A stretch of DNA of 35,490 nt from positions 1-35,490 of the IMG/VR virus record IMGVR_UViG_3300021440_000077, one strand, 5' to 3'. Within the stretch, counting starts at the first letter, position 1; each line of letters starts with the position of its first letter. The position numbers and the translations under genes were made by a program. This document shows, piece by piece, positions 2,038-20,147 of the stretch. The stretch comes from a virus. The notes below the pieces were generated by a model. The model was not told where the DNA came from, searched no databases, and worked only from the letters and a program-made list of their open reading frames with translations.

Positions 2038-3920
2038 TATTTAGCCTCCTTAACAATCTTTGCAGTGGTTTCCTGTGCCTTGGCCAAAGCTTGTCTAGTC
2101 TTGGCGTCTGAAACCTTTATCTCGTTCTCTGCCTTTACTGCGTCTGCCTGATTCTTCATGGCCTGAGCTTCAAGTTTCATTCCTTCACGCTCAATTTCGA
2201 CTTTTCCCTTTTCCTGCTCTTTGGCCATATCTGCCAAATCTTTATCAGTTAACTGACCGTCGAGTTTGTGCTGGAGAATCATCTGTTCCAAAGAGTTGCG
2301 ATGCTTATATTCTTCTAAGGTCAATTCGCGTTCAAGGCTATAGCTCTTGAGTTCCAATTGTCTCTTGGTGTCCTCGAGTTCCTTAGAGAGCTGAGCAATC
2401 TGCATATCCCTCTGTTTAATTTCAGAATTAGCCTGATTAATTAGCTCCTGGTCCTGCATTTCCTGGGCAGTCGGCATTGGCTGTAGCGACATACCAAATT
2501 GAGTAATGTATTCATTATCGCTTTCAACATTGCACATTGCAATTAAAAGTTTGCGCTGGTCCTGTGGTTCTGTTAACAAAGGCTGCATGGATTGCAATAC
2601 AACTCTTGCTTCCTGTTTCTTCAAGCCCTCATCAGGTCCCTGAATAATCTCGATTTTAACCTGACCATACATGCTAGTCTGACTCAATAATTCAATAAAG
2701 CTCAATCCGACAACCTGAAGTGAAGCCCTCAAATTATACATGTAAGCTCTTACATTGTTATTAAATACCTTTTCGGCGGTCAATACTTCAGTAGCTGTTT
2801 TTTCTGTCTCAGTCTCCAAACCAACAGCTGGAATACCGATAATGCTATTGACCATTTGCAGTGATTGCGAGAACATTTCACCAACATCGCCTAACTGAAT
2901 TTCATTATTAATTCTTTCAGGTTTTGGTAATTCTCTCTTACCATCTGGGCTCCAGGAATTATGGATTAAAAGTGGATTTAATGTCTTGTTGGAATCCTTA
3001 TAATATTTCTCCATTCCTTCGATAGCTTCAGAATCTGCAAGCCATGTGTTCTTTGGAGATGAAGCCAATCTAACTAAAATATTAGAATATGCATAGTTAA
3101 TCAATTTCTGAATCGGCTTCATTTGCGAAACGACACCTGTATATGAAAATTCATCATCGTCATAAACAGTCTCGCCAAATACTGGAACAACCGGAATATA
3201 AGTCAAAGGCAACTGAATCGTCTCGATTACATCGTTACCGACAAGTTTGTATACTGAAACACCTTCGTTAGCCTTTTTATAATAAGTGACAACAGGAGCA
3301 TATTCCTTTCTGTCGTATTCTTCGTCAATATCTACCATTGGTCTGTCCATCGTGGTAATATCGATTCCATATGTTCTCTGAATAAAATTCTTATTCTTTA
3401 ATTCTACAATTGCTGCCTCTTCTGCATCAGAACCGTTCAACTTAGAAATGTCAGCATCCAAATAAACCTGGTCCAAATCCCTAATAGAATATAAAACGGG
3501 CTCTACATTTCCCATGACATCTGTATCATTTGAAATAACTAGAACGCCCAAACCGAAACTTACGGCATTTTCCAAAGCCTGCAATGTGGCAGTTATATTA
3601 TCCGGTTGTGAAAGGAATTTATCAGAAACTGCATTAAATGCCTGCGAATCCGCCTGTAACATATTGTCGATTACTTTCCATTTGTATGGTGCCTGACGAT
3701 ATGTGTTAACAATTGTTCTTACAGCATTCTTAACAACATTCAATTTATTTCTGGAACGGTCTGATCCTAGAATCTCTATATCTTCTTTGTCCCATTCATT
3801 GTCATTAAGATATTTCTTATCGTTTTTAATTCGGTCAAGTAACTTCTTATAATGCTTACGTGACTTTTTCTGGAAATCCCTAAAGGATTTAATTACGTCA
3901 TTGTTTTCAATCATTTCCAT
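2037..3920 (-). CDS. Portal protein, P22 type
   Basis: Portal of about 627 residues that would form the dodecameric DNA-entry ring at one head vertex. The N terminus (SFRDFQKKSRKHYKKLLDRI, then NKLNVVKNAVRTIVNTYRQ) and the central VRLASSPKNTWLADSEAIEG and GIPAVGLETETEKTATEVL segments fit P22 gp1-like portals. The last ~150 residues are charged coiled coil rich in Glu, Lys, Gln and Ala, comparable to the P22 portal barrel. The frame continues upstream to 4073, but that part runs through hairpins and lacks portal character. I chose the ATG at 3920; one at 3914 is equally possible because the SD is weak for both. Unusually, it is not next to the terminase genes. Confidence 0.88.
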   Translation of the reverse strand: MEMIENNDVIKSFRDFQKKSRKHYKKLLDRIKNDKKYLNDNEWDKEDIEILGSDRSRNKLNVVKNAVRTIVNTYRQAPYKWKVIDNMLQADSQAFNAVSDKFLSQPDNITATLQALENAVSFGLGVLVISNDTDVMGNVEPVLYSIRDLDQVYLDADISKLNGSDAEEAAIVELKNKNFIQRTYGIDITTMDRPMVDIDEEYDRKEYAPVVTYYKKANEGVSVYKLVGNDVIETIQLPLTYIPVVPVFGETVYDDDEFSYTGVVSQMKPIQKLINYAYSNILVRLASSPKNTWLADSEAIEGMEKYYKDSNKTLNPLLIHNSWSPDGKRELPKPERINNEIQLGDVGEMFSQSLQMVNSIIGIPAVGLETETEKTATEVLTAEKVFNNNVRAYMYNLRASLQVVGLSFIELLSQTSMYGQVKIEIIQGPDEGLKKQEARVVLQSMQPLLTEPQDQRKLLIAMCNVESDNEYITQFGMSLQPMPTAQEMQDQELINQANSEIKQRDMQIAQLSKELEDTKRQLELKSYSLERELTLEEYKHRNSLEQMILQHKLDGQLTDKDLADMAKEQEKGKVEIEREGMKLEAQAMKNQADAVKAENEIKVSDAKTRQALAKAQETTAKIVKEAK

Positions 3921-3960: not shown

Positions 3961-3968
3961 TATTTATT
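3961..3968 (-). promoter_or_regulatory. Late-promoter-like AATAAATA upstream of portal
   Basis: The minus strand reads TTATAATAAATATATTAA about 45 bases before the portal start and directly after a terminator-like hairpin. It differs from the T4 late consensus TATAAATA at one base. With a gp55-like sigma in the window this is a plausible late promoter, but an A/T word this short also occurs by chance. Confidence 0.45.
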
Positions 3969-3975: not shown

Positions 3976-4004
3976 AAAAGACTGTCAAGTTGCCCTGACA
4001 GTCT
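3976..4004 (-). terminator. Terminator-like hairpin upstream of portal
   Basis: On the minus strand AGACTGTCA and TGACAGTCT form a perfect 9-bp stem with an 8-base loop, followed by a short T run. It would separate replication-operon transcripts from the portal, whose candidate late promoter follows within about 10 bases. The short T run keeps confidence moderate. Confidence 0.55.
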
Positions 4005-4085: not shown

Positions 4086-4147
4086 TACTACTGGATTAGT
4101 GAACGTGAATATAATGTGAAATATGAAATCAGCCAGTAGTAGGATTT
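4080..4147. repeat. 15-bp inverted repeat B, overlapping repeat A
   Basis: AAATCCTACTACTGG (4080-4094) and CCAGTAGTAGGATTT (4133-4147) are perfect inverted repeats with a 38-base spacer. The hairpin lies just past the stop codon at 4154. It may terminate the replication operon, although there is no long T run after it. Confidence 0.8.
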
Positions 4148-4153
4148 ATTTAT

Positions 4154-4738
4154 TTATGCATTTGCCAATCGTGCAAAAAGTTCATCTTCATTCTCAGCTT
4201 CGACAACCTGACCTTCCTTACCACTATAAACAGGATTAATGTCAATATCGATAGCTTCAACGCCGTAGACCTTTTTATCATAATCCGTTACTTTTGTAAT
4301 TCCGAAATCCTTAATAGGTTCTTCTAATTCCAAAACTTTTGTAACAGTTGCAAAACTACCGTTTTCCTTAACATCGACCTTAATGTCCAATGTTGCAAAA
4401 ATGTCCTTTACGTTATTATTCTTGTCATAAACAATCTTCAAATAATTATCGAGAGAATCAGCGGCACCTACATTTTCCCAAATCTTCGGAAGTGTAGACT
4501 TATCTGTAAACGAAATTGTGCATGGCTTAGTGGAAACATGAACACTCTTTCCAGCCTTGTTCTTACAGTCCCAAAGGAATGAAACTAAATTCTTTGGTTC
4601 CTTACCTTCTTCAACAAATTGCTGTGACTGCTTAGAAATCTTTACAGCAATCAATCGACCCTTATAAATGCCTGCCTTTTCAATATTATCAAATGCGTCA
4701 TTAGTCTTCTGTGTGTAAAGTTCATTGTAATTAATCAT
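4154..4738 (-). CDS. Replication-operon protein, possible ssDNA-binding protein
   Basis: A 194-residue protein I do not recognise by family. The body (YKGRLIAVKISKQSQQFVEE, then LVSFLWDCKNKAGKSVHVST) alternates beta-like strands and could be an OB-type fold. It ends in an acidic segment, VVEAENEDELFARLANA, similar in style to the acidic tips of phage ssDNA-binding proteins. It follows helicase and primase but has its own extended -10 promoter at 4782-4790 and an AAAGGA SD. These points make an ssDNA-binding protein a reasonable guess, not a demonstrated one. Confidence 0.7.
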   Translation of the reverse strand: MINYNELYTQKTNDAFDNIEKAGIYKGRLIAVKISKQSQQFVEEGKEPKNLVSFLWDCKNKAGKSVHVSTKPCTISFTDKSTLPKIWENVGAADSLDNYLKIVYDKNNNVKDIFATLDIKVDVKENGSFATVTKVLELEEPIKDFGITKVTDYDKKVYGVEAIDIDINPVYSGKEGQVVEAENEDELFARLANA

Positions 4739-4781
4739 AATTATTTTCCTTTAATGAATTGTTTGTTATTGTTATATTACA

Positions 4782-4790
4782 AATATAGCA
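4782..4790 (-). promoter_or_regulatory. Extended -10 promoter for the 194-residue gene
   Basis: The minus strand reads TTTGCTATATTT, giving an extended -10 (TGC plus TATATT) about 44 bases before the start codon. No good -35 is seen at 17 bases, which an extended -10 can tolerate. The same element recurs near 7774, 8440, 16528 and 33521. Confidence 0.6.
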
Positions 4791-4810
4791 AATAATTTTA
4801 CTATAAATGA

Positions 4811-5566
4811 TTATTTTAATTTATGTTGGATTTCTCTTTCAGTCCAATTTTCAGATTTGGCCTTATCGATTACCATTTGTAATGTCCGTTCATCATTATA
4901 CTGCTTACATGTTTGCAAAGCGGCATATAACCATGATGAACTATTACCGTTGCCAGTCATATAAGGAAACGGCGTTTCCAAATATCTCTTGACAACATCC
5001 CATTTACTACAATCTACAGAATTATTAGTTCCCATATAATTGCGGTACCTTCTGGTAAGCTCAGACCACTTTTCTCTAGTTGCAGACTCCAGTAATACTT
5101 GATTATAGCAATCCTCAAATACACTCTCGTCTATTTGATTTCCACCGTTAAATAACAATTTCTGTTCTTTACCGGTGTCCTTACGAATTACATCTGGTCT
5201 TCTAGTCAAACGAGACGGGTTGGCACATGCTCTATCGCAATTACCACCAAACCATTCCCTGTTGAAATATTGCCAAATCAATTTGTAGTATTCACTACAG
5301 AACTTTTCATCCTTAGACGGAAACTCAACAATAACATGAATAGATTTCTTTCCTGAGAATGTAACTCTCATTATATTGTCTCTATGTTTCCTAGCTAATT
5401 CTATCTGTTCTGCTAATGGTAAACTATCGGATTCGAATAGAAATCTTGTATGATAAAGGCAGTTATCGTCACTGCGATAAGCTGACTTTAGTTCATTCAA
5501 GACTTCATATTCACATTGTGATAAAGGTTTATTTGTAACTTGTGTTTTTGTTGCGTAATATATCAT
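4811..5566 (-). CDS. DNA primase, archaeo-eukaryotic (AEP) type
   Basis: A 251-residue primase-like protein that would make primers for the phage fork with the adjacent SF3 helicase. It has FLFESDSLPLAEQ near residues 43-55, a position matching AEP motif I, then FSGKKSIHVIVEF near 90-102, matching the S-x-H motif II, and CANPSRLTRRPDVIRKDTGK near 138-157, resembling the segment around motif III. The C-terminal ~80 residues (SSWLYAALQTCKQYNDERT onward) look like a small helical domain. Its ATG overlaps the helicase stop (TAATG), so the two are coupled. Assigned from motifs; the metal-binding acids are not certain. Confidence 0.78.
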   Translation of the reverse strand: MIYYATKTQVTNKPLSQCEYEVLNELKSAYRSDDNCLYHTRFLFESDSLPLAEQIELARKHRDNIMRVTFSGKKSIHVIVEFPSKDEKFCSEYYKLIWQYFNREWFGGNCDRACANPSRLTRRPDVIRKDTGKEQKLLFNGGNQIDESVFEDCYNQVLLESATREKWSELTRRYRNYMGTNNSVDCSKWDVVKRYLETPFPYMTGNGNSSSWLYAALQTCKQYNDERTLQMVIDKAKSENWTEREIQHKLK

Positions 5567-7626
5567 TAGAATGTAAAATCATTAATTTTGTTATCTTTTT
5601 CTGTTTCTGGTATTCTGAATTGTAATGGATAAGCTTTTACTACAAATCCGTCGCGTCTAATATCTTTATATTTTATATTTTTGATATTAGCTAAGAACTG
5701 TGTCCACTTCCACCAATTTTGGTCTTTTGTATTTATTTCACCTACAACTTCACTTCCAGTTCGAACATATCTAAATGCGAAAGCATCTCTATAGTCTCTA
5801 TTCTTATCGTCCAATAATACTTCTTCAATCTTATGGCGCATTTCTTTCGCTGAAATACCATCTTTGATTTCAGCAGGTACAAGAAATTGGTTATAAAAGT
5901 TTTCATAATCTATATAATCTTCAGTATCTGTATATTCATCCGTGTTGAAGTAATCTCTTAATAATTCTTCATTGAATGCTCTCTTAGTAATAATATCATC
6001 AGAGACATCAACAAATTTAGATTTATCTTTTAGATATTGTTCTTCATCTTCTAATGACATTACCAAATACTTATTGTTAACAAATAATGGATTCTTTTTA
6101 TAGATGGTATAGCAATAATTAAGGAAATCCTTTGCAGTGCTATTTAATGCTTCTTGTTTTTCTTCAGTCCACTGATATTGACCAACAAATGTTAATGGAA
6201 TTGCTCTTCTTCTGTTTGCATATTCTTTAATAGTCGCTTTCTTATTACTGAATACAATTAACTTGTGGTTTACTGGATTCCATTTGACATGACTTTTTCC
6301 TTTTACATTCAGAGACATAGTATTATTTGCAATGAATTTCTTTGCTTTATCAGAACTTAAAGAATTATTAGAATATTCTTCCATGATAGAAATATGCGAA
6401 TTCCATACCTTTAATCCAGCCAATCCAAATTCATTACTGTCAGATAATACACCCTGGTCAATTGGAGAAATAGCATTTTTTGGTAACGCATGTTCTAATG
6501 CTCTCATCATGACACCTTTACCTGTACCACCTTGGTCAGAAATAATCAAATATTGTTGTGTTGAATTATTTGCATCTATGCACATTCCTAAGAATGTTAT
6601 CAATCGCATTTGAAAATGAACCTCTGGCATTTTCTCTTTAAGAAATACTTTCCATGGCTCAGGCATACTTTTTACTTCTTCTGGAATCCAATGAGAAACT
6701 GCTGTATCTGTTGGATTATTAGACCATGCGAGAAATTCAGTTTGACCATAAATCATTGACTTATATTTTTTCCAATTTTCCAATACATATTGGAATATAT
6801 CATCAAATTGTTCAATTCTATTATTTCGCTTTAAATCGAAATTTCTTAATTTCTTATGCGTCTTACCTTTATCATCTGTCCATGTTTCATATACTGCTCT
6901 AACTTTATATAATGTTACAAATGCGGTCGGTAATTCATTCTGAATAAAATCTTCTATTGGAGTTTCTATAACTCCATTTTCTAAATCGATTTCTATATTA
7001 TCAATATCCAATCCATCAAGAAATTCCATAAATTTTCTATAATAAATTGAAATCTTCTCCATGAAATTTCTTTTTACTCTATATGCTATACCTGTTGGCT
7101 TAATCCAATGACAATTATCGATTGTGACAACACCTCGCATATCTTCAGTCAACAGTTCACAGTCTCCAGATTCCTCGAGTACAAGCTGATCACCACACAA
7201 CTTGAAGTTACTGAACAAGTTCAAATCCTTGGAATTGATTTTGAAAAGTTCGTCCTTAAGCTCTACTTCCTTATAAGTTACTTCAAGTTCTTCTCTTGTA
7301 TACTTTGGGCCAGATAATCTTTTAATTCTACCCTCTTGTTGTTTCTTTATTTTATATTCATTTTTATCATTAATTAGACTTTCAAATAATAAGATAATGT
7401 CATCAATATTGACTTTTCTTCCTATAACACTTTTAATCATCGGAATTAACATTTCCAATGTCATAGGATTTTCTTTCTTCTTATCTTCTGCTCTAAAGAA
7501 TAATATCTTGCAATTTTCAATAAAACTATCAAATAATTCTGGATCTAATTTTACTGCATTTGCTTCATCGAGTATTACTTTTAAAGTATCTACATTATCT
7601 GTACTATATAATTTTAATTCAGTCAT
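5566..7626 (-). CDS. Superfamily 3 replicative helicase (D5/DUF5906-like)
   Basis: A 686-residue ATPase that would unwind DNA 3' to 5' at the fork. The core lies near residues 350-500: Walker A QGGTGKG at about 365, Walker B SHISIMEEYSNN with the acidic pair typical of SF3, and motif C NHKLIVFSNKK ending in the expected Asn. The N-terminal ~280 residues have no motif I recognise and may bind DNA or primase. The C-terminal ~150 residues resemble winged-helix tails of D5-type helicases. It is the first gene of the replication operon, behind a promoter at 7774-7802 and a structured leader whose hairpin covers the AAGGA SD. Confidence 0.88.
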   Translation of the reverse strand: MTELKLYSTDNVDTLKVILDEANAVKLDPELFDSFIENCKILFFRAEDKKKENPMTLEMLIPMIKSVIGRKVNIDDIILLFESLINDKNEYKIKKQQEGRIKRLSGPKYTREELEVTYKEVELKDELFKINSKDLNLFSNFKLCGDQLVLEESGDCELLTEDMRGVVTIDNCHWIKPTGIAYRVKRNFMEKISIYYRKFMEFLDGLDIDNIEIDLENGVIETPIEDFIQNELPTAFVTLYKVRAVYETWTDDKGKTHKKLRNFDLKRNNRIEQFDDIFQYVLENWKKYKSMIYGQTEFLAWSNNPTDTAVSHWIPEEVKSMPEPWKVFLKEKMPEVHFQMRLITFLGMCIDANNSTQQYLIISDQGGTGKGVMMRALEHALPKNAISPIDQGVLSDSNEFGLAGLKVWNSHISIMEEYSNNSLSSDKAKKFIANNTMSLNVKGKSHVKWNPVNHKLIVFSNKKATIKEYANRRRAIPLTFVGQYQWTEEKQEALNSTAKDFLNYCYTIYKKNPLFVNNKYLVMSLEDEEQYLKDKSKFVDVSDDIITKRAFNEELLRDYFNTDEYTDTEDYIDYENFYNQFLVPAEIKDGISAKEMRHKIEEVLLDDKNRDYRDAFAFRYVRTGSEVVGEINTKDQNWWKWTQFLANIKNIKYKDIRRDGFVVKAYPLQFRIPETEKDNKINDFTF

Positions 7627-7631
7627 ATAAA

Positions 7632-7753
7632 AAATGTCCTTGTGGCGCCTCTACTCACCACAAAGACATTTCATTACTATATAGGATATTTTTATATATG
7701 AAATTTGTGTTCTGCACGTTAGACTGAGAGTAGAGGAAACCTAAATACCGTGC
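7632..7753 (-). promoter_or_regulatory. Structured leader RNA with complementary hairpin loops
   Basis: In the leader of the helicase mRNA, hairpin 1 pairs GCACG (7753-7749) plus TTAG with CTAA plus CGTGC (7722-7714), leaving an 18-base loop that contains CCTCTACTC (7736-7728). Hairpin 2 pairs AAATGTCTTTGTGG (7671-7658) with CCACAAGGACATTT (7645-7632) through 14 pairs including one G-U; its 12-base loop contains GAGTAGAGG (7656-7648), a perfect 9-base complement of the hairpin 1 loop. Hairpin 2 contains the AAGGA SD and is followed by a T run just before the ATG, so it could stop transcription or hide the ribosome site. I match it to no known riboswitch class. Confidence 0.7.
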
Positions 7754-7773
7754 TCATAATTATTTATGTTGAT

Positions 7774-7802
7774 AATATAGCAAATTTTCGCTAACTTGTC
7801 AA
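7774..7802 (-). promoter_or_regulatory. Sigma70-type promoter of the replication operon
   Basis: On the minus strand a perfect -35 TTGACA (7802-7797) is followed by a 17-base spacer ending in TGC and a -10 TATATT (7779-7774). This is the best host-type promoter in the window. Transcription would start near 7767, giving a ~140-base leader before the helicase. Confidence 0.85.
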
Positions 7803-7808
7803 CCCCTA

Positions 7809-7826
7809 TGTAAAAATATTTTTGTA
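7809..7826. promoter_or_regulatory. Imperfect palindrome, operator candidate
   Basis: TGTAAAAATATTTTTGTA lies six bases upstream of the -35 box of the replication promoter. Its first 16 bases nearly repeat the perfect palindrome at 8405-8422; the last three differ at two positions. Sharing between two early promoters suggests a common DNA-binding regulator. Confidence 0.5.
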
Positions 7827-8104
7827 GCAGACCCCGTAGCTAAGAATAGGCCTATTTGGTAAGCTACACGAAATTGGCCTTTTTTGCTCAAAAACGATGC
7901 TTTTAGGAGTTGTAGCTTTGTAGCTAACCCCGGGCGACTAACTTCTTATATACGTACATAAATAAATTTTTCTAATTGTATATATGTATTAATATTCTAT
8001 TTTACTAAGCTACAAAGCTACAAAGCTACAAATAATAAAAAAGTATAAAAAACAAATAGTTTTTATACTTTTTCATTCAAATTTGTAGCTTAGTCTTAAG
8101 CTAC
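7824..8104. other. Iteron-rich non-coding region, candidate replication origin
   Basis: No gene is seen here. The region carries nine copies of GTAGCT or its complement AGCTAC: 7836, 7862, 7912, 7920, 8008, 8016, 8024, 8085 and 8099. Three are in tandem at exact 8-base spacing (AGCTACAA unit). ACTAAGCTACAAA at 8004-8016 is mirrored by TTTGTAGCTTAGT at 8082-8094, enclosing a second hairpin. A very AT-rich stretch (about 7940-8005) adjoins the repeats. Iterons, an AT-rich block and adjacency to helicase and primase genes fit an origin; a regulatory or termination role is also possible. Confidence 0.5.
8038..8073. terminator. Bidirectional terminator-like hairpin inside the repeat region
   Basis: AAAAAGTATAAAAA (8038-8051) and TTTTTATACTTTTT (8060-8073) form a perfect 14-bp stem with an 8-base loop, with T-rich ends in both directions. 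It lies about 30 bases past the stop of the minus-strand gene ending at 8106. It is very AT-rich, so it could instead be part of a cruciform. Confidence 0.5.
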
Positions 8105-8105
8105 A

Positions 8106-8336
8106 CTAAGATACATTTACACCAGCAACAGGTGGCACAATATCTATATCGAAATATTCTAAACTGTTTTTGATAGTATCGTCTAATATTTCTATAGTTA
8201 TATCCTGCGGTATGTAAACCCATCCAGCCCTACCATTATATTCTGCACACCAATAATCTCTATCATCTGGATAACTAAATTTCATACCTACTGGCGAATG
8301 TTCGTTTAAATATTTGTGAATTTCTTCATAATCCAT
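8106..8336 (-). CDS. Hypothetical 76-residue protein
   Basis: A small acidic protein with no family I recognise. Its centre, DDRDYWCAEYNGRAGWVYIP, is aromatic-rich and may form a small beta-sheet. The N terminus is helical and the C terminus is IDIVPPVAGVNVS. It has a good SD (AAAGGA) and its own promoter at 8366-8394, diverging from that of the sigma-factor gene, so it is probably expressed early. The shared control region hints at a regulatory or host-takeover role, but nothing in the protein shows this. Confidence 0.7.
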   Translation of the reverse strand: MDYEEIHKYLNEHSPVGMKFSYPDDRDYWCAEYNGRAGWVYIPQDITIEILDDTIKNSLEYFDIDIVPPVAGVNVS

Positions 8337-8404: not shown

Positions 8405-8422
8405 TGTAAAAATATTTTTACA
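8405..8422. promoter_or_regulatory. Perfect 18-base palindrome, operator candidate
   Basis: TGTAAAAATATTTTTACA is its own reverse complement. It lies between two divergent promoters and overlaps the -35 box (8417-8422) of the plus-strand one, so a bound dimer would block that promoter. A near copy lies at 7809-7826. Confidence 0.6.
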
Positions 8423-8445
8423 TACTTCCAATAATTTGCTATATT
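8417..8445 (+). promoter_or_regulatory. Sigma70-type promoter of the sigma-factor operon
   Basis: TTTACA (8417-8422), a 17-base spacer ending in TGC, and TATATT (8440-8445). Start expected near 8452, just before the GAGGT SD and the ATG at 8465. Confidence 0.8.
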
Positions 8446-8464: not shown

Positions 8465-9013
8465 ATGGGAAGAAAACCGAAAGCAACAGATTACGTATCG
8501 AATGCACGATTACGTGAACTAATTATTGAATATAATGACATAAATCCTAACGATAATGGCGAATGGCTTGATAAATTTGAGAAGACAATGCGAACAAAGG
8601 GCAAATACGAGTCTGTTCGCACATGGATAGCCCTCAGACGTCAAAAGTATGTTCAGCCTAGGAAACATACGCCCCGATTCGAAATGGTCTCTAACGAGCT
8701 CTTTAAAGCGATTTACAAGATAGCTCAGGGTAGAATAGCATGTTTCTCTGGAATACCGGTCGACGAGAAGGAAGATTTATTGCAAGATTGCATGCTGGCA
8801 GTTACACAATACATCAATCGTTACAGGGAGGATATAGAAAGTTCAGCATTTGCGTATACGACGCAGATAATAAACAATGCGATTAAGCTGCATATGGGAC
8901 AAGATAATGATTCTAGGTGGTGCAGACAACCATGGAATGACATTTCGGACCAGTGTATAGCATTAATGTATGGAGTAGATGAAGATGGATACGAAAGAGA
9001 GACAGAGATTTAG
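8465..9013 (+). CDS. Late-transcription sigma factor, T4 gp55-like
   Basis: A 182-residue protein close in length to T4 gp55 (185 residues). The N terminus, TDYVSNARLRELIIEYNDIN, parallels the gp55 start (a YVNN-type motif then a helix). Residues ~75-135 look like sigma region 2: NELFKAIYKIAQGRIACFSG, then DEKEDLLQDCMLAVTQYINR with the DLxQD signature, then SAFAYTTQIINNAIKLHM. It would bind host core RNA polymerase and direct it to short late promoters having only a -10 element. In T4 the gp55 C terminus binds the sliding clamp; here the end (CIALMYGVDED) has a hydrophobic patch beside acidic residues but no clear match, and no clamp or gp33 gene is visible. The gene is early, behind a strong host-type promoter with a palindrome across its -35. 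Confidence 0.75.
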   Translation: MGRKPKATDYVSNARLRELIIEYNDINPNDNGEWLDKFEKTMRTKGKYESVRTWIALRRQKYVQPRKHTPRFEMVSNELFKAIYKIAQGRIACFSGIPVDEKEDLLQDCMLAVTQYINRYREDIESSAFAYTTQIINNAIKLHMGQDNDSRWCRQPWNDISDQCIALMYGVDEDGYERETEI

Positions 9014-9302
9014 AAATACTAAACAATGGAAAGAATTTAGACGCAAGCTAATTGAGAAGCAGAAGAAGGATGCAATTACTGGAAATCCTTTAACAATTAC
9101 AGCCAACTGTCATCACTGTTTGTTGGACTATGAGAGATATACGGAATTAAATGACGAGAATTTCGTGATTCTCAACAAAGAATCACATGATACAGTGCAT
9201 TTCTTCTTCCTCAAATCTAAACCTAGAGAATGGAGAAAACGAGTATTGAACCTTATAAAGATACTAAAAAAGATGGAAAAATTAAATAGTAAGCAAAAGT
9301 AA
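8979..9302 (+). CDS. HNH-like protein overlapping the sigma gene
   Basis: A 107-residue basic protein with a His-Me-finger-like layout: a WKEFRRKLIEKQ helix, DAITGNPLTI, then CHHCLLDYERYTELNDENF and SHDTVHFFF. The HH pair, the Asn and the later His in an H-x3-VH pattern correspond to H, N and H positions, with no zinc-binding Cys pairs. Such proteins may be nucleases in recombination or DNA processing; activity is not proven here. Its ATG lies inside the end of the sigma gene (overlap 8979-9013), behind GGAG, so the two are co-translated. An ATG at 8985 is an alternative. Confidence 0.65.
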   Translation: MKMDTKERQRFRNTKQWKEFRRKLIEKQKKDAITGNPLTITANCHHCLLDYERYTELNDENFVILNKESHDTVHFFFLKSKPREWRKRVLNLIKILKKMEKLNSKQK

Positions 9303-9312
9303 ATAATTTTTT

Positions 9313-9320
9313 ACTATATT
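9313..9320 (+). promoter_or_regulatory. Possible -10 element before the 134-residue gene
   Basis: TACTATATT recurs in this phage's promoters. No -35 is visible and the surroundings are almost all A/T, so this is a weak call. Confidence 0.35.
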
Positions 9321-9364
9321 TTATCATATATAATATAAATTAATTTATAAATTGAGTTATTAAT

Positions 9365-9769
9365 ATGGCAAATAGAACATGGACAGACGAGCAACGTGCC
9401 GCGCAATCTGAAAAAATGAAGGCAGCATGGAAACGTCATAGCACAAAACGGAGGGTAAGGGAGACAAGAAGACTAAGCCGCGAAAATGGCGAGAATCTTG
9501 TCAATATCGAACAGATGGCTTCAGACGAGGCATATCGAGATTACCAGAGAGAATATAAAAGGATTTATTATAAACGTCCAGATAAATATGCAGCTTGGAA
9601 GGCTTACACTCATATACAGAAACTTAAACAACGTTCAATGGACGAATTGATTGCCCTAAGGGATAAACATATTCGTAACGGACATGATGAATGGCGACAG
9701 AGAGTAGAACAGGCTATGCAGTTAAAAATGGAAGAGGAAACAGATGCACAAATATATTCTAACACATAA
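9365..9769 (+). CDS. Hypothetical basic 134-residue protein
   Basis: Strongly basic and helical. The start, RTWTDEQRAAQSEKMKAAWK, resembles the NUMOD3-type DNA-binding motif of phage homing nucleases, followed by an Arg/Lys-rich stretch (RHSTKRRVRETRRLSREN). The middle has tyrosine repeats (YRDYQREYKRIYYKRPDKYA). No catalytic motif is seen, so a DNA- or RNA-binding role is the most that can be inferred. It ends inside the start of the next gene, in another frame. Confidence 0.65.
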   Translation: MANRTWTDEQRAAQSEKMKAAWKRHSTKRRVRETRRLSRENGENLVNIEQMASDEAYRDYQREYKRIYYKRPDKYAAWKAYTHIQKLKQRSMDELIALRDKHIRNGHDEWRQRVEQAMQLKMEEETDAQIYSNT

Positions 9770-10442
9770 AGATATGGAGCCTGTTGAGGGATTTGAGATA
9801 ATCGACAACAGGGACAATAAAGAGTTGGATCATAGAATTTGGTCAGAGTTGGCTGGTATGCAGCTAATATACAATAAACTCATAAATGAAAAAGCAGAAA
9901 ACGGGATGAATGCTTATGAAGATAATGAATTTATTTCATTAAGTCATTATAGACGCAGAATTGACCCTGACTGTATTAACCGCTTTTATGTCCCGCAACC
10001 AGTAAGATTTCAGACAACATTGGCTATGCAATATGCAGCGGCACACAATATTGAAGATTTGAAATTGTGTGGTGAGGCTTTAAAACAGGAATTCCCGCAT
10101 TTAGTTCCAGTGTTTGAAGGAACGATGAATGGAAATGTGTTTGTTCCTTATATAATTGCAGTTATGACGGTTGGACAATTTAAGGATTACTGGAACTTCT
10201 TATATAAGGTATTAATTAATTTCCATAAGAAGTTAGGTACTGAAACGTTTGAACAAAGAATCGATTATATCGAACGTCATGCCGATAAGTATACTGGAGA
10301 AGGAAAAGACAATAAAGTAGAGTATCAGGCAAGGATTGAATCATTTTTAGCTGAAAGATTGGCAACTACATATTTTGGTTTATGTTCACAAAAAATTCCG
10401 ATTTATCCAGCCGCTATTATTAAAACAGAAGGAGCATGGTAA
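9744..10442 (+). CDS. DUF4422-type glycosyltransferase
   Basis: A 232-residue protein with marks of the DUF4422 family, found in bacterial capsule and O-antigen clusters: YILTHKDMEP at the start, SELAGMQLIYNK before the core motif FISLSHYRRRID (residues ~63-74), and a C-terminal ARIESFLAERLATTYF segment. The HYRRxx motif is the family signature. The enzyme would transfer a sugar from an activated donor; donor and acceptor are unknown. The ATG is inside the end of the previous gene, with AGAGGA as SD. Glycosylation of phage DNA, virion or host envelope is possible. Confidence 0.72.
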   Translation: MHKYILTHKDMEPVEGFEIIDNRDNKELDHRIWSELAGMQLIYNKLINEKAENGMNAYEDNEFISLSHYRRRIDPDCINRFYVPQPVRFQTTLAMQYAAAHNIEDLKLCGEALKQEFPHLVPVFEGTMNGNVFVPYIIAVMTVGQFKDYWNFLYKVLINFHKKLGTETFEQRIDYIERHADKYTGEGKDNKVEYQARIESFLAERLATTYFGLCSQKIPIYPAAIIKTEGAW

Positions 10443-11557
10443 TGAATAAAGATTTAATTTTATGTATTTCACCCGAATGGACCGCGGGCGGTTGTGGTGT
10501 ATTGAGAGTTCAACAGAATGTAAATTACATCAATCAGAATTGGCAGCGATTTGGTGTTAAAATCATTATGACACCTGAACCAATTTTTGACACAAACATC
10601 CTTAGTCGTTGCAGATGTATATTTGTACAGAGACCGTTTGGACCAATGCCATGGTTAAAGAATTACAAAGAGCTTCAGCCGAAGATGGGTTACTCTATAA
10701 TCGGAGAATGCGATGATAATTTCACTACATACAAAGGCGAAAATATCCCTGACTACAACATGAGTTCTTTGAATCCAAGAGACTGGAATATCATTGATAA
10801 AATTGTAGCTGAAAATTTGCAATACATCGACAGAATGATTTTAGCAACTGACTATTTGGCTACTATATTACATGAAAAATTTCAGTATTGGAATACTGTT
10901 GTTATTCCTAATGTTTGCGAACGTTCTTTGTGGTCAAGAGAAAGAAAGACATTCTTCAGAGATAAGCCATTAGTATTGAGTGCATCCGCAATGCAACATG
11001 TAAGACCTCCACAACCAATGAATCAACAGTTTCCTGTAGGAGTAACTGGGTTAAGAGGTGACTATGTTGGTGAATGGCCAGAGTGGTTAATTGCAAATGT
11101 TGATAAGATGGATCTTCATTACTTTGCTGATGTTCCTTATTTCCTAGACTGTATCAGAGATAAAATCCAATTGCACCCATGGCAATCTACAGACTTGTAT
11201 ATCGGTGAATATAACAGAATTAGACCAGACATTGTTATTGCACCATTAAAGAATAATATCTTTAACCGTTGCAAAAGTAAATTAAAGTTTACCGAATGTT
11301 GTGCATCTGGTGCTATATTGATGGGCAGTGATTTCGAAGAATCTCCATATAGCTGCATTCACCCATTATGTAAAGTTCCTGACAATCCAACTAAAGAACA
11401 GTTAGAAACAATCTTTAATAATATTAAAACACATTGGAAAGAAATTGTAGAATGGCAATATGATTTTATTAACAAAAACGGTGAATGGTTAGAATCTGAG
11501 GATCATTTGAATAAATGGTTGACAGCTTGTAGCACACCTAATACGAGGTTGATATAA
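10442..11557 (+). CDS. GT-B-fold glycosyltransferase
   Basis: A 371-residue protein starting at the ATG at 10442, which overlaps the previous stop (TAATG) and has AAGGAG seven bases upstream; the in-frame ATG at 10436 is too close to that SD. The C-terminal half carries the GT4-like donor-binding signature DIVIAPLKNNIFNRCKSKLK followed by FTECCASGAILMGSD (about residues 270-305). The N-terminal half (LILCISPEWTAGGCGVLRVQ) fits the first Rossmann domain. It would use a nucleotide sugar; acceptor unknown. It follows another glycosyltransferase, so the two probably act in sequence. Confidence 0.75.
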   Translation: MNKDLILCISPEWTAGGCGVLRVQQNVNYINQNWQRFGVKIIMTPEPIFDTNILSRCRCIFVQRPFGPMPWLKNYKELQPKMGYSIIGECDDNFTTYKGENIPDYNMSSLNPRDWNIIDKIVAENLQYIDRMILATDYLATILHEKFQYWNTVVIPNVCERSLWSRERKTFFRDKPLVLSASAMQHVRPPQPMNQQFPVGVTGLRGDYVGEWPEWLIANVDKMDLHYFADVPYFLDCIRDKIQLHPWQSTDLYIGEYNRIRPDIVIAPLKNNIFNRCKSKLKFTECCASGAILMGSDFEESPYSCIHPLCKVPDNPTKEQLETIFNNIKTHWKEIVEWQYDFINKNGEWLESEDHLNKWLTACSTPNTRLI

Positions 11558-11727
11558 TGAACAGACTAGAACTTGAATGGGCGATAATGACTCCTGAAGA
11601 AAAAGCAGCAATTATGTTTCCTGACATGAGCACGTTACCGCTTAACGATATAGAAAAGAAACATGTATATGAAATGTTCGAATTCAAGGATCCTGATGCA
11701 TGGAGAGCTGAATTGGACGAAGGTTAA
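11557..11727 (+). CDS. Hypothetical acidic 56-residue protein
   Basis: A short ORF coupled to the glycosyltransferase by a TAATG overlap, with a GAGGT SD. Product: MNRLELEWAIMTPEEKAAIM, then FPDMSTLPLNDIEKKHVYEM, ending in FEFKDPDAWRAELDEG. It is acidic and probably helical; I recognise no family. It is the last gene before a clear terminator at 11748. Confidence 0.6.
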   Translation: MNRLELEWAIMTPEEKAAIMFPDMSTLPLNDIEKKHVYEMFEFKDPDAWRAELDEG

Positions 11728-11747
11728 CTGAATCAAAAATTATTTAG

Positions 11748-11778
11748 GTCCTAGGGTTAACAAACCTTGGGACTTTTT
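11748..11778 (+). terminator. Rho-independent terminator after the sigma/glycosyltransferase operon
   Basis: GTCCTAGGGTT (11748-11758) pairs with AACCTTGGGAC (11763-11773) through 11 pairs including two G-U wobbles, with a 4-base loop and a TTTTT tail. Confidence 0.85.
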
Positions 11779-11779
11779 C

Positions 11780-11785
11780 TATATT
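11780..11785 (+). promoter_or_regulatory. -10-like TATATT at the start of the 75-residue gene
   Basis: TTCTATATT follows the terminator T run, and the ATG begins seven bases after the hexamer, so transcription from here would give an almost leaderless mRNA. No -35 is identified. Confidence 0.4.
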
Positions 11786-11791
11786 ATAGTC

Positions 11792-12019
11792 ATGAAGATT
11801 GAATATTACAAAAACAAATACATCCACCTTTCTCTTGGCAACCTTAATATTGAGTATTCTATTAGCAATAAGACTGTCTTCTTCCCTTATGGCAAGATGA
11901 AGACATTTGATTCTAAGAAAGACGCTTGTGACTTTCTTGATGCTCTTAATGCTAAGTTTGCACAATTTAAGGGATGCACTCGCAATGAAATGATTAACCT
12001 TATTAAGGAGGCAGCATAA
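11792..12019 (+). CDS. Hypothetical 75-residue protein
   Basis: Small protein of unknown family: a beta-rich N-terminal half (KYIHLSLGNLNIEYSISN) and a helical C-terminal half (KKDACDFLDALNAKFAQF). There is no SD before the ATG; a -10-like hexamer sits seven bases upstream, suggesting a leaderless transcript. It is the first of two genes between terminators at 11748 and 12405. Such independently transcribed small genes are often accessory, but no function can be assigned. Confidence 0.65.
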   Translation: MKIEYYKNKYIHLSLGNLNIEYSISNKTVFFPYGKMKTFDSKKDACDFLDALNAKFAQFKGCTRNEMINLIKEAA

Positions 12020-12384
12020 TGTCTATTAAATCTACAACATCCAAATCTAATAGTGTATTTGGTTATCTGCGTGAAGCTATTAAATATGGAACATTGATGG
12101 CACATACAACCTATCCGTCTAAATATTTCTTAGCAACTAAGAGAGTAAACTGTAATGGTGTGTATTGTGATCAATACTTTACTACAACTTTCAAGAAATT
12201 CGGAAATGCTAAATTACGTCTTTATAAGAATGATTTAGAAATAACCATTAACCATAAGGTTATTATTATTCCTGATTTAGATAGATATTATGTAGAACAT
12301 CCAATTATTACTATACAAAAAACAGATTCAACTATTACAGAGTTATGTAATGAAATTTTAAGACTTTTGTACAAAGAGATTTAA
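12019..12384 (+). CDS. Hypothetical 121-residue protein
   Basis: Unknown family. Basic, with predicted strands (KRVNCNGVYCDQYFTTTFKK, KLRLYKNDLEITINHKVIII) and a C-terminal helix (TITELCNEILRLLYKEI). Coupled to the preceding gene by a TAATG overlap with a strong AAGGAGG SD, so the two products may act together. A terminator follows at 12405. Confidence 0.68.
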   Translation: MSIKSTTSKSNSVFGYLREAIKYGTLMAHTTYPSKYFLATKRVNCNGVYCDQYFTTTFKKFGNAKLRLYKNDLEITINHKVIIIPDLDRYYVEHPIITIQKTDSTITELCNEILRLLYKEI

Positions 12385-12404
12385 AATATGTGATTCCTCA
12401 TTAA

Positions 12405-12468
12405 AATAAAAGGTGACTGAATCAAAAGTTTTTGGCATAATTTACTTACGATTCAGTCACTTTTTATT
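12405..12468. terminator. Bidirectional terminator, 19-bp stem
   Basis: Left arm 12405-12423 and right arm 12450-12468 pair over 19 bases with one G-U wobble; the core is GTGACTGAATC with GATTCAGTCAC. Both strands end in T-rich runs, so it can stop plus-strand transcripts from 11792-12384 and late minus-strand transcripts passing 12815. Confidence 0.8.
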
Positions 12469-12505
12469 ATATTTGATATATCAACAAATAACAAATGAGG
12501 TAAAT

Positions 12506-12814
12506 ATGAGACTTATTATCGGTCAAACATGGAATGATAAAATGAATGGCATTGATAAGTGCTGGGTTGCTACAAACCGTAAAACTGACAAGCACTTAAT
12601 GGAAGGTACACATGCAGAATGTTATGCATTTGTACAAGCTAAGTTAGCAGAAGATAATGCAAAGTTTAAAATTAAATTTGACGCATTTGATGGTAAACTT
12701 GTAACTAAGGAAGAATTTAAACAAATAACTAAATCACTCAAAAGTGATAATACAAAAACCTGGCGCATGATGGAACATCAAGGCCAGATTAAATTGAAAG
12801 TTTGGGATATTTAG
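12506..12814 (+). CDS. Hypothetical 102-residue protein
   Basis: Starts at the ATG at 12506 (MRLIIGQTWNDKMNGIDKCW) behind a TGAGGT SD. The same frame extends upstream to 12413, but that part is the terminator hairpin and is not taken as coding. Lys-rich, mixed strand/helix, no family recognised. A -10-like TTATATT near 12467 follows the terminator, so the gene seems to have its own promoter. It converges with the late minus-strand genes. Confidence 0.65.
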   Translation: MRLIIGQTWNDKMNGIDKCWVATNRKTDKHLMEGTHAECYAFVQAKLAEDNAKFKIKFDAFDGKLVTKEEFKQITKSLKSDNTKTWRMMEHQGQIKLKVWDI

Positions 12815-12888: not shown

Positions 12889-14580
12889 TTAATCCTCTTG
12901 AACTCCAAATATTTCAATTATTCTAGGATCATCCTTGTATTTTTTAAACTTTTCAGGTAACTTAGGTTTTTCAATATATTTGTCAAAACCTTGTTTCTTA
13001 TTAAGTTCTGCCATTCTCTTTAAGAATTCAAGTTCAGCTAAATCCTTATTTGAAAGTTTTGGCTTCTTCTCGAATGTTTCTTCTGATACAAAGCTATTAG
13101 GAACAATAGAACTAATACCACCTAACATTCTATTACCATATTGGCTTCTACCCTGTGCGTTAGCTAAGTATGTACCTGGAGCTTCTCCAATATTACCTTT
13201 TGCCCAATTCCAAAGAGATTCTTTAGGTTTTGCGCCCATAACTTCAAGTTCATCAGATGTTAAGGTAGACATTGGATCAGTACCTTGTAAAGATGCAGTT
13301 CTCATTTTCTTTTCCGTGAGATATTCACCAGCTGGTTCAATAGACGGTGCATATTCTGCAGCTACAGCTTCTTCAGCATTAGTCTTTTTACCACGTAAAA
13401 GTTTAGAGTCTTCACCAAAGGCATTTAACTCTTTTAATGTTATCTTGTTGTTATTACGAGCATATTCTTCAGGTGATATTTCTTTAATTACATATCTTCC
13501 ATTTTCCTTACGAATAGTCTTATATGTAACTTTCTCAATTTCATCAGGACCAGTCATTTCAAATTCCTGCCATACGCCGCCGTTCTTTAATTTTCTTTGA
13601 ACGTCACGAGCAGCATTAGCCTTTTGGTTAATGAAATCTTTAGCAGCTTGGCCCTTAGCACCCCCCTGGAATGGACGAGTAGCCCAACGATAACCACCTT
13701 TCAATAAGAACGGCGTTGCAATATTGGTAGAAACTTCACCAACAATATCTTTAGCTATATCTTCAGAATCTTCTTTATTTAATAAACCATTTGCTACCCC
13801 TTTAATAACCGGTGCTGCAGTATTATTAACAGCATTCTTAACGAATTCCTTTGCTGCAACATTTTTGATTGGTGTACCAGCTATAGAACCGCCAGCACCA
13901 AGCATAGCTGCATTAATACCAACGTCAGCTGCCAATGGTAATGCCATATCGCCTATATCATCAATATTTTGATAATTCTGACGTGCATATTCCTTAGAAA
14001 CAGGTAACATGAAATCTACAGCAGTACCAGCTAGATCATTTGCCTTAAACGCGTCTTCTACATTTTTAGCTTTATGATATTCGTAAACCTTATCAAGAAA
14101 TTCCTTTCTATCAGATTTGTCAGTATAGTCATAACCGTACTGGTCAGCTAAAGCCTTCATTTGTTCATAGTCATAACCCTGGGAATAAATTTCATCAACG
14201 TTAAGGTCATCAAGTTTATTTGTTTCAGGGGTAATAGAAAGCTGATCAAAGAATCTAAGCTTGTCTAATTCCTGACTATCTGCAAATTCAGGCCAGTTGT
14301 CGAGACCATAACCTTCCAATTCAGCTTCCTGTTTGGCAAGTTCTTCAGGATTAGTCCAGTGTGCAAGTTCTTCTTTCAATGCGTTAAATGTGGTAATCTT
14401 ATTATTGATTCCTTTAGCATTCTGAGCGTCTTCCCAAAGACGCTTAAGATTTTTTGCATCGTCGTCAAGAACAAAGGAACCATTAGATTTCTTTTCGCCA
14501 TACCATTTGTTAAGGTTGGTATATAATGACTTCTTATTCTTTCTCAAGTAATTATCAATTTGTTCTATTGTACTTGACAT
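12889..14580 (-). CDS. Probable DNA-ejection protein, large (gp16-like position)
   Basis: A 563-residue protein in the slot where P22-like phages encode their largest ejection protein (P22 gp16, 609 residues). N-terminal ~190 residues are charged and helical. A central stretch (~200-270: AADVGINAAMLGAGGSIAGT, then NTAAPVIKGVANGLL) is rich in Gly and Ala and mildly hydrophobic, as in proteins that enter the host envelope. I see no lytic transglycosylase or protease motif. It starts three bases after the previous stop with a GGGAG SD. Role inferred from position and composition. Confidence 0.6.
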   Translation of the reverse strand: MSSTIEQIDNYLRKNKKSLYTNLNKWYGEKKSNGSFVLDDDAKNLKRLWEDAQNAKGINNKITTFNALKEELAHWTNPEELAKQEAELEGYGLDNWPEFADSQELDKLRFFDQLSITPETNKLDDLNVDEIYSQGYDYEQMKALADQYGYDYTDKSDRKEFLDKVYEYHKAKNVEDAFKANDLAGTAVDFMLPVSKEYARQNYQNIDDIGDMALPLAADVGINAAMLGAGGSIAGTPIKNVAAKEFVKNAVNNTAAPVIKGVANGLLNKEDSEDIAKDIVGEVSTNIATPFLLKGGYRWATRPFQGGAKGQAAKDFINQKANAARDVQRKLKNGGVWQEFEMTGPDEIEKVTYKTIRKENGRYVIKEISPEEYARNNNKITLKELNAFGEDSKLLRGKKTNAEEAVAAEYAPSIEPAGEYLTEKKMRTASLQGTDPMSTLTSDELEVMGAKPKESLWNWAKGNIGEAPGTYLANAQGRSQYGNRMLGGISSIVPNSFVSEETFEKKPKLSNKDLAELEFLKRMAELNKKQGFDKYIEKPKLPEKFKKYKDDPRIIEIFGVQED

Positions 14581-14582
14581 TA

Positions 14583-15383
14583 TTAACTTCTCCCAGAAGG
14601 TCTGACCTTTTTAGTTTTGACTGTCTTTCTATGCAATTTATCCGCATCGCTAAATGCTTTATTGAATGCTGGATCGTATTTAGCTTCAGGGAAATCCCTT
14701 GTAATCTGAGTATATTGTTGTAACAAATAATCATGATATGCCCTAGGATCCTTGCCAAAACCTCCCTCGTCCTTTGTTACATTAAACAAGTTCGTTGCAT
14801 TGGTCATAGCATCCATAGCCATCTGTGCCCTTTGCTGCGGTAACTGTCCATTAAGCTGTGCTTCAGCTTCAAGAATATTGTTATATTCATCAGACAAATT
14901 ATTGTTCATGGCTTCTGTCTTAAGACCAGCTAAAGTATTCTTAAATTGCTGAATCTGTTCTGGACTTGTCTTCCAACCAATAGACATTGTAGGTAATGTT
15001 GCTGAAATTTTATTTCTAATAAATTGCTTCTGATCTTCCTTAGTCTTCTCCTTTTCTTTCTCGATACGTTCCAAGTCCTGTTTACGGAATTCAGCCGCCT
15101 GTTCCTGACCTGCTTTCCATCTCCAGTTACTGAACGAAGTATCTGGATTATTAATACGTTCTGCAGCAAGAGAATCAATCTTCTTATAGTCTGGATTCTC
15201 CTTATCCATTTCATTGGCAATTTGACGATTCTTAATAGCGTCATAGACCTGTGTGCCAAACTTAAATAAATTCTGAAGTCCTTGTGTATCAGAAGCCTGA
15301 TTTGCCGCCATTTGCTGAGAAAAGTCTCTAGGAGCAAAGACCAATGATGTGGGAATTCCAAATTGTGGTGTATTTAATGCCAT
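14583..15383 (-). CDS. Probable DNA-ejection protein, 266 residues
   Basis: Starts at the ATG at 15383 (MALNTPQFGIPTSLVFAPRD) behind AAGAGG; the same frame opens at 15428 but lacks an SD there. Mostly helical and rich in Gln, Asn and Lys (ERIEKEKEKTKEDQKQFIRN), ending in a basic tail (KTVKTKKVRPSGRS). Position among gp10-like and gp16-like genes suggests a virion protein released with the DNA, comparable in place to P22 gp20. An AATAAATA element precedes it at 15398-15405. Confidence 0.55.
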   Translation of the reverse strand: MALNTPQFGIPTSLVFAPRDFSQQMAANQASDTQGLQNLFKFGTQVYDAIKNRQIANEMDKENPDYKKIDSLAAERINNPDTSFSNWRWKAGQEQAAEFRKQDLERIEKEKEKTKEDQKQFIRNKISATLPTMSIGWKTSPEQIQQFKNTLAGLKTEAMNNNLSDEYNNILEAEAQLNGQLPQQRAQMAMDAMTNATNLFNVTKDEGGFGKDPRAYHDYLLQQYTQITRDFPEAKYDPAFNKAFSDADKLHRKTVKTKKVRPSGRS

Positions 15384-15403
15384 TATAAACCTCTTATTAT
15401 TTA

Positions 15404-15919
15404 TTATATGCGGTGTGAACGCATCCATGAACCGTTCTTTGAAAGTTCCCTACCTAAAGAGCCGGAATTAATTAACTTTAACACTTCTTGTGCAGCTTCC
15501 TGAACAGTATTGCCTCCGCGGAAAGTATAACTCTTAGAATTGCCATACTTAATACCAATAGTGTTGTCTGGATTGATTTTGATTTCTGAGATTACAGATG
15601 ATGACGGAGTTAGTGGTCTTCTAGGCGTTTTGTCTTTTGCAGGATTCCATTTAGCTAAATTCCTTTCAATCTGTTCGCCCATCATCTTTCTTACAGCTGG
15701 CGGGTATTGCATTGCAGCCAAATAAGCGTTTAATGCATCATTGTGTTCCTGTTGAGTTTGAGCTAATGCAGCGTCCTGTTCTGAACGATTGCGGAGAGCA
15801 TTGTTTTGAACAGCGCCTGGAACGTAAATTACATCATACGTGAAACCACCTGGCGCATTATTTGGTAATACGTCATTAATAGGAGCCATTGGCCCGAATA
15901 CTTGTGCAGTCGAAGCCAT
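15404..15919 (-). CDS. Virion-associated protein, 171 residues
   Basis: N-terminal ~100 residues are Gln/Asn/Ala-rich (SEQDAALAQTQQEHNDALNA) with a proline stretch (RRPLTPSSS). The C-terminal ~60 residues form a separate small domain: IGIKYGNSKSYTFRGGNTVQ, then EVLKLINSGSLGRELSKNGS. This resembles short KTSC-like folds in phage proteins, though I am not certain. Strong SD (AAGGAG) overlapping the end of the previous gene. Probably part of the ejection set. Confidence 0.55.
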   Translation of the reverse strand: MASTAQVFGPMAPINDVLPNNAPGGFTYDVIYVPGAVQNNALRNRSEQDAALAQTQQEHNDALNAYLAAMQYPPAVRKMMGEQIERNLAKWNPAKDKTPRRPLTPSSSVISEIKINPDNTIGIKYGNSKSYTFRGGNTVQEAAQEVLKLINSGSLGRELSKNGSWMRSHRI

Positions 15920-15929
15920 TAACTACTCC

Positions 15930-16100
15930 TTAGTAATTACCGAAAACAGAATTGATTGATGGCAACTGTAAATTAGGCTGCTGCTGACCAATCTGAAGTT
16001 GATTCTGTCTCAATGCATTAGCCTGGTTTTGAAGATCCTGATTTTCAGACTGTGCTTTTTTCTGTGCGGCTGAAATTGCTGCTAGAATTAAAGGAAACAT
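15930..16100 (-). CDS. Small 56-residue virion-region protein
   Basis: MFPLILAAISAAQKKAQSEN at the start, then a Gln/Asn-rich helix (DLQNQANALRQNQLQIGQQQ) and the tail SINSVFGNY. GAGG lies seven bases before the ATG, and the stop overlaps the SD of the next gene, so it is coupled. Its composition matches the neighbouring ejection-type proteins. The short hydrophobic N terminus could touch membrane. Confidence 0.6.
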   Translation of the reverse strand: MFPLILAAISAAQKKAQSENQDLQNQANALRQNQLQIGQQQPNLQLPSINSVFGNY

Positions 16101-16113
16101 TTTTTACCTCTAC

Positions 16114-16518: not shown

Positions 16519-16527
16519 ATATTACCA

Positions 16528-16556
16528 AATATAGCAAATTTTACATCATTTGTAAA
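16528..16556 (-). promoter_or_regulatory. Sigma70-type promoter of the HNH gene at 16518
   Basis: On the minus strand TTTACA (16556-16551), a 17-base spacer ending TGC, and TATATT (16533-16528). The -10 ends 10 bases before the ATG, implying a nearly leaderless transcript. Confidence 0.75.
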
Positions 16557-16569
16557 CTCTGAATTTTCC

Positions 16570-17295: not shown

Positions 17296-17305
17296 ACAAG
17301 TCTCC

Positions 17306-17599: not shown

Positions 17600-17607
17600 A
17601 TATTACC

Positions 17608-19221: not shown

Positions 19222-19230
19222 TTAAACCTC

Positions 19231-20109: not shown

Positions 20110-20133
20110 AAAATCTCCAAATATTATCTTATA

Positions 20134-20141
20134 TATTTATT
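20134..20141 (-). promoter_or_regulatory. Late-promoter-like AATAAATA before the gp4-like gene
   Basis: The minus strand reads TTATAATAAATATATAAG, immediately after the coat-gene terminator and about 25 bases before the start codon. Near-identical to the element before the portal. Confidence 0.5.
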
Positions 20142-20147
20142 ATAACA

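Follow-up and report, generated by a model that had tools for sequence, protein, structure and literature searches.

A Divergent gp55-Family Sigma Factor as the Predicted Late Switch of a P22-like Phage

Introduction

The product of positions 8465–9013 in virus record IMGVR_UViG_3300021440_000077 is, as judged from sequence and modelled fold, a divergent late sigma factor of the gp55 type. The record is classed as linear, and its 35,490 bases are the whole stretch analysed here (the window). We are strongly inclined to regard this gp55-family sigma as the late switch of a P22-like phage, acting on WATAAATA boxes and probably without a phage clamp or gp33. In T4, gp55 works with late promoters of the type TATAAATA. 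P22 relies on the host sigma-70 and on gp23 antitermination at one late promoter. The present phage resembles P22 in its set of virion genes and differs from it in having many dispersed late boxes and a sigma factor of its own.

Gene Layout and Virion Genes

The virion genes had been called P22-like in the sequence-only reading, and this description holds. The portal product matches P22_portal with an E-value of 9e-39, and PHROG matches were obtained for coat, scaffold, terminase and a gp10-type Hc3 head-closure protein. Tail-type proteins are also encoded on the minus strand beside these genes. A primase/helicase pair adjoins the portal gene, while the block of plus-strand genes, 8465–12814, begins with the sigma gene; the gene order matches that of related contigs. 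The main genes are the following.

2037–3920, minus strand: P22-type portal protein, with its own late box
8465–9013, plus strand: gp55-type late sigma factor of 182 amino acids, an intact ORF supported by profile, profile-profile and fold matches
12889–24119, minus strand: virion operon with ejection-type proteins, gp10-like head closure, coat, scaffold, and large and small terminase
8979–9302, 9365–9769, 16114–16518, 24922–25491, 31373–31867 and 33047–33511, both strands: HNH/homing-endonuclease-like genes

Gene starts were taken as the first ATG, and some probably lie upstream of the true start. For the scaffold gene the true start is likely at 22248, to which both a box and a leader hairpin point. 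The Rfam scan of the window gave no match.

Several other features of the region were recorded. Two glycosyltransferase-like genes on the plus strand, 9744–10442 and 10436–11557, one matching DUF4422 (E 1.5e-13) and the other PHROG 7162, have counterparts close to the sigma gene in almost every relative whose contig covers this region. The replication modules are swapped among relatives: the window carries a primase and a DUF5906-type helicase (4154–7626, minus strand), and the probably complete genomes G001 (21135–22817) and G003 (22218–23931) show only an AAA ATPase, with no recognisable primase, helicase or polymerase. The HNH/homing-endonuclease-like genes number at least six in 35 kb and are mobile among the relatives too. 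Long tail-type proteins (26497–29136 and 33550–35436, minus strand) contain repeated units of the form LGVQ(D/G/S/E)PLYFVEDSE and show piecewise sharing with other tail genes of relatives.

The Sigma Factor and Its Relatives

The ORF is not a chance one, since its relatives are about 37–75% identical and a homologue is found in every contig with a window-type portal whose length leaves room for the gene. In the profile search, residues 7–140 matched PHROG 234, "late sigma transcription factor" (gp55), with an E-value of 8.6e-7, and residues 100–141 matched the Pfam domain Sigma70_r2 at 25.0 bits, against a cut-off of 24. Both profiles were matched by all seven homologues first aligned. The stretch DEKEDLLQDCMLAV (residues 100–113), earlier proposed as a sigma region 2-like core, falls inside the Sigma70_r2 match. 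A translated search of some 50,000 phage genomes was headed, at E 0.02, by a gene annotated in phage pf16 as late sigma factor; the other, weak matches lay mostly in gp55 genes of T4-type phages. Comparison by hhalign with a three-member gp55 alignment gave a probability of 97.7% (E 1.4e-12), as against 3.9% over 19 columns for gp36 of phiEco32; an origin from a phiEco32-type sigma was rejected on this figure.

Structural comparison pointed to the same family. The AlphaFold2 model has a mean pLDDT of 81 and is uncertain after residue 145. The top PDB chain by Foldseek and VIA-align was 7d7c_F, T4 gp55 itself (Z 9.9, 3.0 Å over 99 residues, 25% identity), so that a non-sigma fold as best match, which would have spoken against the assignment, was not seen. 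The chains that follow are other sigma region 2 domains, with SigB at Z 8.8. The Foldseek E-value is weak even for the top chain (0.095); hence the fold backs the sequence evidence and would be insufficient alone. A PDB sequence search with the single protein returned nothing meaningful, and one with the sigma profile placed gp55 first, but at an E-value of 0.074. The HMM check of gp55 likeness set beforehand thus gave a clear match, as did the profile-profile and fold comparisons, and "gp55-like" should be taken, as far as such comparisons go, to mean a divergent homologue.

The 182-residue protein can be divided as follows.

Residues ~27–66: family-specific helical insertion
Residues ~70–145: sigma-2-like core
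C terminus: short acidic tail

Like T4 gp55 (PHROG 234; 7d7c/7d7d), the protein is small, has region 2 only, and keeps the YVxN motif and the base-reading residues equivalent to N13, Y97 and T99. The N-terminal motif Y10-V11-x-N13, which lies outside region 2, is common to gp55 and the present family. Conserved segment 1 of gp55 is defined by aromatic residues at positions 10 and 23 (PMC2988020); here Y10 is invariant and position 23 is Y or W. On a T4 late promoter, gp55 holds A-12 by Y97, A-9 by N13 and H95, and A-8 by T99 (PMC7892883). T4 N13, Y97, T99 and H95 align with N13, Y131, T133 and F129 of the window sigma. Across nine homologues N13 and Y131 never vary and position 133 has T or S; the H95 column holds F or L. 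As regards the other pocket residues, the F86 column is Y, the L54 column mostly R and the R57 column C, S or A, the alignment being less certain at the last two. The acidic residues of core binding, E70 and D74 in T4, correspond to D104 and D/E108 and are acidic in all homologues, and the E77 column is L, V or I. The R114 column (T4 helix-loop-helix) is N, A or K, in a part of the model with pLDDT of about 60. In this alignment the T4 contacts without conservation are L54, R57, E77 and R114, less surely for the first two.

The family also differs from T4 gp55 in its low identity (20–25%) and in the insertion of about 35–40 residues that follows the N-terminal motif and precedes the core. In none of the homologues was a T4-like terminal clamp-binding motif found, which is likewise not obvious in the annotated gp55 of phage Syn33. 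The window sigma and its three closest relatives do carry, near the C terminus, a hydrophobic-aromatic-acidic stretch, I(S/A)LMYGV(D/E)E, which resembles T4 LDFLYE; the likeness was judged by eye only. G006, G007 and G010 encode homologues without the stretch, and the G004 homologue has it in altered form.

Two relatives, G001 (37,225 bases) and G003 (37,144 bases), have 127-base repeats at their ends, from which we take them to be probably complete. G005 (loci L027 and L028) is a mosaic whose terminase is 30%, portal 24% and sigma 75% identical to those of the window, and the boxes are present; the sigma and its promoters thus move as a pair between head modules. No relative turned up when bacterial genomes were scanned for sigma and portal, and locus L016 was rejected as a relative because it holds a small terminase-like ORF. 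As a separate observation, G014, the 66-kb contig behind L065 and nearly twice the usual length, carries a second, weak sigma-type match (22593–22832, minus strand, E 2.8e-5) besides a true homologue.

Late Boxes

The late box WATAAATA, which is the T4 late box with T or A in first position, was spotted by reading the gaps between genes; k-mer counts, strand bias, shuffling at gene level and four held-out genomes afterwards served to test it. In T4, A in place of T at −13 is tolerated, as nine sites show (PMC2988020). Boxes of the TATAAATA type had been predicted before virion genes, and they were indeed found there by sequence, although start sites have not been mapped. Matches in the window include the following.

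3961–3968, minus strand: late box AATAAATA, 48 nt upstream of the portal gene
4147–4154, minus strand: late-box match AATAAATA of uncertain role, at the end of ORF 4154–4738 and upstream of a terminator-like hairpin
15398–15405, minus strand: late box AATAAATA, before gene 14583–15428, the likely ATG being just downstream
17311–17318, minus strand: late box AATAAATA, 23 nt before gene 16570–17295
20134–20141, minus strand: late box AATAAATA, 32 nt before gene 19231–20109, with a hairpin and T run just upstream
22294–22301, minus strand: late box TATAAATA, upstream of the scaffold gene, whose ATG is likely at 22248
24312–24319, minus strand: late box TATAAATA, before the terminase operon
24883–24890, minus strand: late box AATAAATA, 42 nt before gene 24315–24848
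26490–26497, minus strand: late box AATAAATA, 22 nt upstream of tail-type gene 25540–26475
29154–29161, minus strand: late box AATAAATA, 25 nt before tail-type gene 26497–29136

Eight genomes together have 79 copies of WATAAATA on the virion strand against five on the other, and for the longer WATAAATATA the figures are 34 and none; the corresponding ratios for the window alone are 11:0 and 5:0. The boxes precede many different genes and lie mostly 20–50 bases upstream of virion-gene start codons. A box within 75 nt upstream was found for 55 of the 207 virion-strand genes of the eight genomes, as compared with 7.5 in shuffles, and for four of the 91 other genes (5.1 in shuffles). In the window, seven of the 29 virion-strand genes have a box where 1.2 would be expected, and no box stands before the starts of the early genes at 4154–8336, which lie on the same strand. 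The number of WATAAATAT matches in the window is not in itself unusual (six, 3.7 expected); only their placement and strand are. The four held-out genomes, found later, all carry the sigma and show boxes in a ratio of 14:2. As a control, a late region of T4 gave a strand bias of 19:6, while two podoviruses with a P22-type portal and no sigma match showed no late-strand bias (VvAW1 0:0, BA3 1:5); the controls differ in G+C. At the late boxes, matches to a −35 element were as frequent as in shuffled sequence, so the boxes, by sequence, lack the form of sigma-70-type late promoters, which would have counted against a phage-sigma switch.

Some late genes lack a box. Boxes that are homologous between related genomes do not count as independent observations, so the statistics overstate formal significance. 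A simple EM motif search on the late-strand gaps did not return the box. It returned instead a G-rich leader motif that includes the hairpin leaders.

A short hairpin with a 5-bp stem lies just after the late boxes of the terminase-leader and scaffold genes (24283–24299 and 22264–22280, minus strand). It is also present in G001, G002, G003, G004, G007 and G008, with many compensatory changes; xNxAA stands in front of it, and in most cases an AGGA-type site comes next. The full stem is found in 11 of 12 leaders (0.3 expected in shuffles). The hairpin would sit at the extreme 5′ end of late mRNAs and is possibly a stabiliser or an operator.

Early Promoters and Terminators

Promoters of a different kind, sigma-70 type with the form TTKACA-17-TATATT (TTTACA or TTGACA), were derived from the gaps between genes. 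At 29 of 53 sites the −35 hexamer has five or six of six matches to TTGACA, where 1.5 sites would be expected. Two of these promoters and one terminator-like hairpin bear on the window.

8417–8445, plus strand: TTTACA-17-TATATT, predicted to drive the sigma gene as an early promoter for host sigma-70; TG stands in front of the −10
7774–7802, minus strand: TTGACA-17-TATATT, predicted to serve the helicase/primase operon as an early sigma-70 promoter although it shares the strand of the virion genes
3979–4004, minus strand: hairpin resembling an intrinsic terminator, which separates the replication genes from the portal late box

Several late boxes (G000, G001 and G005) directly adjoin the end of a terminator-like hairpin and its T run, and hairpin-plus-T-run stretches also stand before the G001 portal box and one G005 late box. 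Hairpins so placed upstream of the boxes would insulate late genes from early transcripts.

Search for a Clamp and Co-activator

No phage clamp, of the gp45 or the bacterial beta type (PF02916, PF00712), was found by profile in any of eight genomes, two of which are the probably complete ones with end repeats; the lack of a visible sliding clamp remarked on earlier is thereby extended beyond the window. By profile, no sigma region 4 domain was present in the eight genomes either, and no DNA polymerase was found among the proteins scanned. None of the ORFs scanned carried a gp33-like Pfam name, in a search made without a gp33 profile for what is a small, divergent protein.

In T4, gp55 alone gives basal transcription, C-terminally cut gp55 doing equally well, and gp33 with the gp45 clamp provides activation (PMC2988020, PMC7892883). 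The present system looks clamp-free since the clamp-binding tail and the R114 contact of T4 are not conserved, and from the failure to find a clamp, region 4 or a DNA polymerase we infer that it works without a phage clamp. Phage clamp and gp33 are thus probably dispensable for the late switch, clamp independence being an inference; use of a host clamp is not excluded. Whether small P22-type phages carry out gp55 late transcription without any clamp or gp33, their late genes being uncoupled from replication via the clamp, and the insertion (~27–66) or another phage protein substituting for the roles of gp33 and clamp, is to our minds evenly balanced.

Proposed Mechanism and Alternatives

In the proposed mechanism, which is inferred without transcript data, the host polymerase with its housekeeping sigma would transcribe the early genes, including those for the phage sigma and replication, from TTKACA-17-TATATT promoters; this timing is read from promoter type. 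The phage sigma, having region 2 and no region 4, is predicted to bind core polymerase through the β′ clamp helices and would direct it to the −10-only WATAAATA boxes before the virion genes. There, A at −12, −9 and −8 may be read by Y131, N13/F129 and T133, respectively, as in T4. Terminator-like hairpins, such as that at 4004–3979 before the portal box, may block early transcripts from entering the late genes.

The same sigma and boxes could also depend on a host clamp, the I(S/A)LMYGV(D/E)E stretch docking on the host beta clamp and so coupling late transcription to replication. The LDFLYE-like character of this stretch in the window sigma and its three closest relatives is what recommends the idea; however, a likeness seen only by eye, lost in three homologues and altered in a fourth, is slender support, no phage clamp was detected by profile, and we think host-clamp dependence unlikely. 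It is harder still to accept that WATAAATA is an A/T-rich translation or leader signal and no promoter, with the protein an anti-sigma-like or other regulator of host polymerase. Many boxes do lie only 20–30 nt before start codons, beside AGGAG-type ribosome sites. Early-strand genes are translated as well, however, and have the box at chance level only, the early genes on the virion strand lack it before their starts, and in the bases that gp55 contacts the box agrees fully with the T4 target, with A accepted at −13 in T4 (PMC2988020). We therefore give this explanation very little weight.

Least credible to us is that the protein is an ordinary ECF or phiEco32-type sigma whose likeness to gp55 is convergent. 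All sigma region 2 domains share one fold, and several sigma chains, SigB among them, come near the gp55 score, which favours this view. Against it stand the hhalign preference for gp55 over phiEco32 gp36, the shared Y10-V11-x-N13 outside region 2, and a box that is T4-like and unlike the phiEco32 late box tAATGTAtA (PMC8948821). The divergent gp55-type sigma acting on WATAAATA boxes remains the reading we prefer.

Comparison with Other Systems

As in T4, a TATAAATA-type box without a −35 element stands before virion genes, which it is taken to control. Unlike T4, the genome is of about 37 kb and the head P22-type, and gp45, gp33 and DNA polymerase were not found. A podovirus with its own sigma is already known. 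In phiEco32, a Kuravirus podovirus of 77 kb, gp36 is a sigma without region 4 that serves virion genes from single-element promoters lacking a −35 (PMC8948821). The late sigma gp47 of phage 7-11 has region 4 and uses the bipartite promoter GTAAtg-16-aCTA (PMC8948821). The present phage is like both in that a podovirus would switch on its late or virion genes by its own sigma; it is unlike phiEco32 in that gp36 is unrelated to gp55 beyond a short region-2 stretch and the phiEco32 virion is not P22-type. A gp55-type sigma and T4-type boxes together with a P22-type virion, in a genome of about 37 kb where no clamp was found, form a combination not met in the open-access literature searched.

Conclusions

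In the standard review of T4 late transcription, gp55 together with the sliding clamp is assigned to the T4-related phages, and its restriction to them is called puzzling (PMC2988020). The open-access literature searched, which lacks most subscription papers, yielded no previous account of a gp55-type sigma in a small podovirus; as far as found, this would be the first gp55/TATAAATA system outside the large T4-type phages. The promoter-recognition half of the T4 late system, protein and boxes, is met here in a 37-kb P22-type genome in which no clamp was found, and a comparison of clamp-dependent with apparently clamp-free gp55 would allow one to ask what clamp coupling adds. The boxes, together with the early promoters, offer a way to predict early and late genes across this group of uncultured phages. 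Moreover, the finding means that P22-type virion genes can run under a quite different control circuit.
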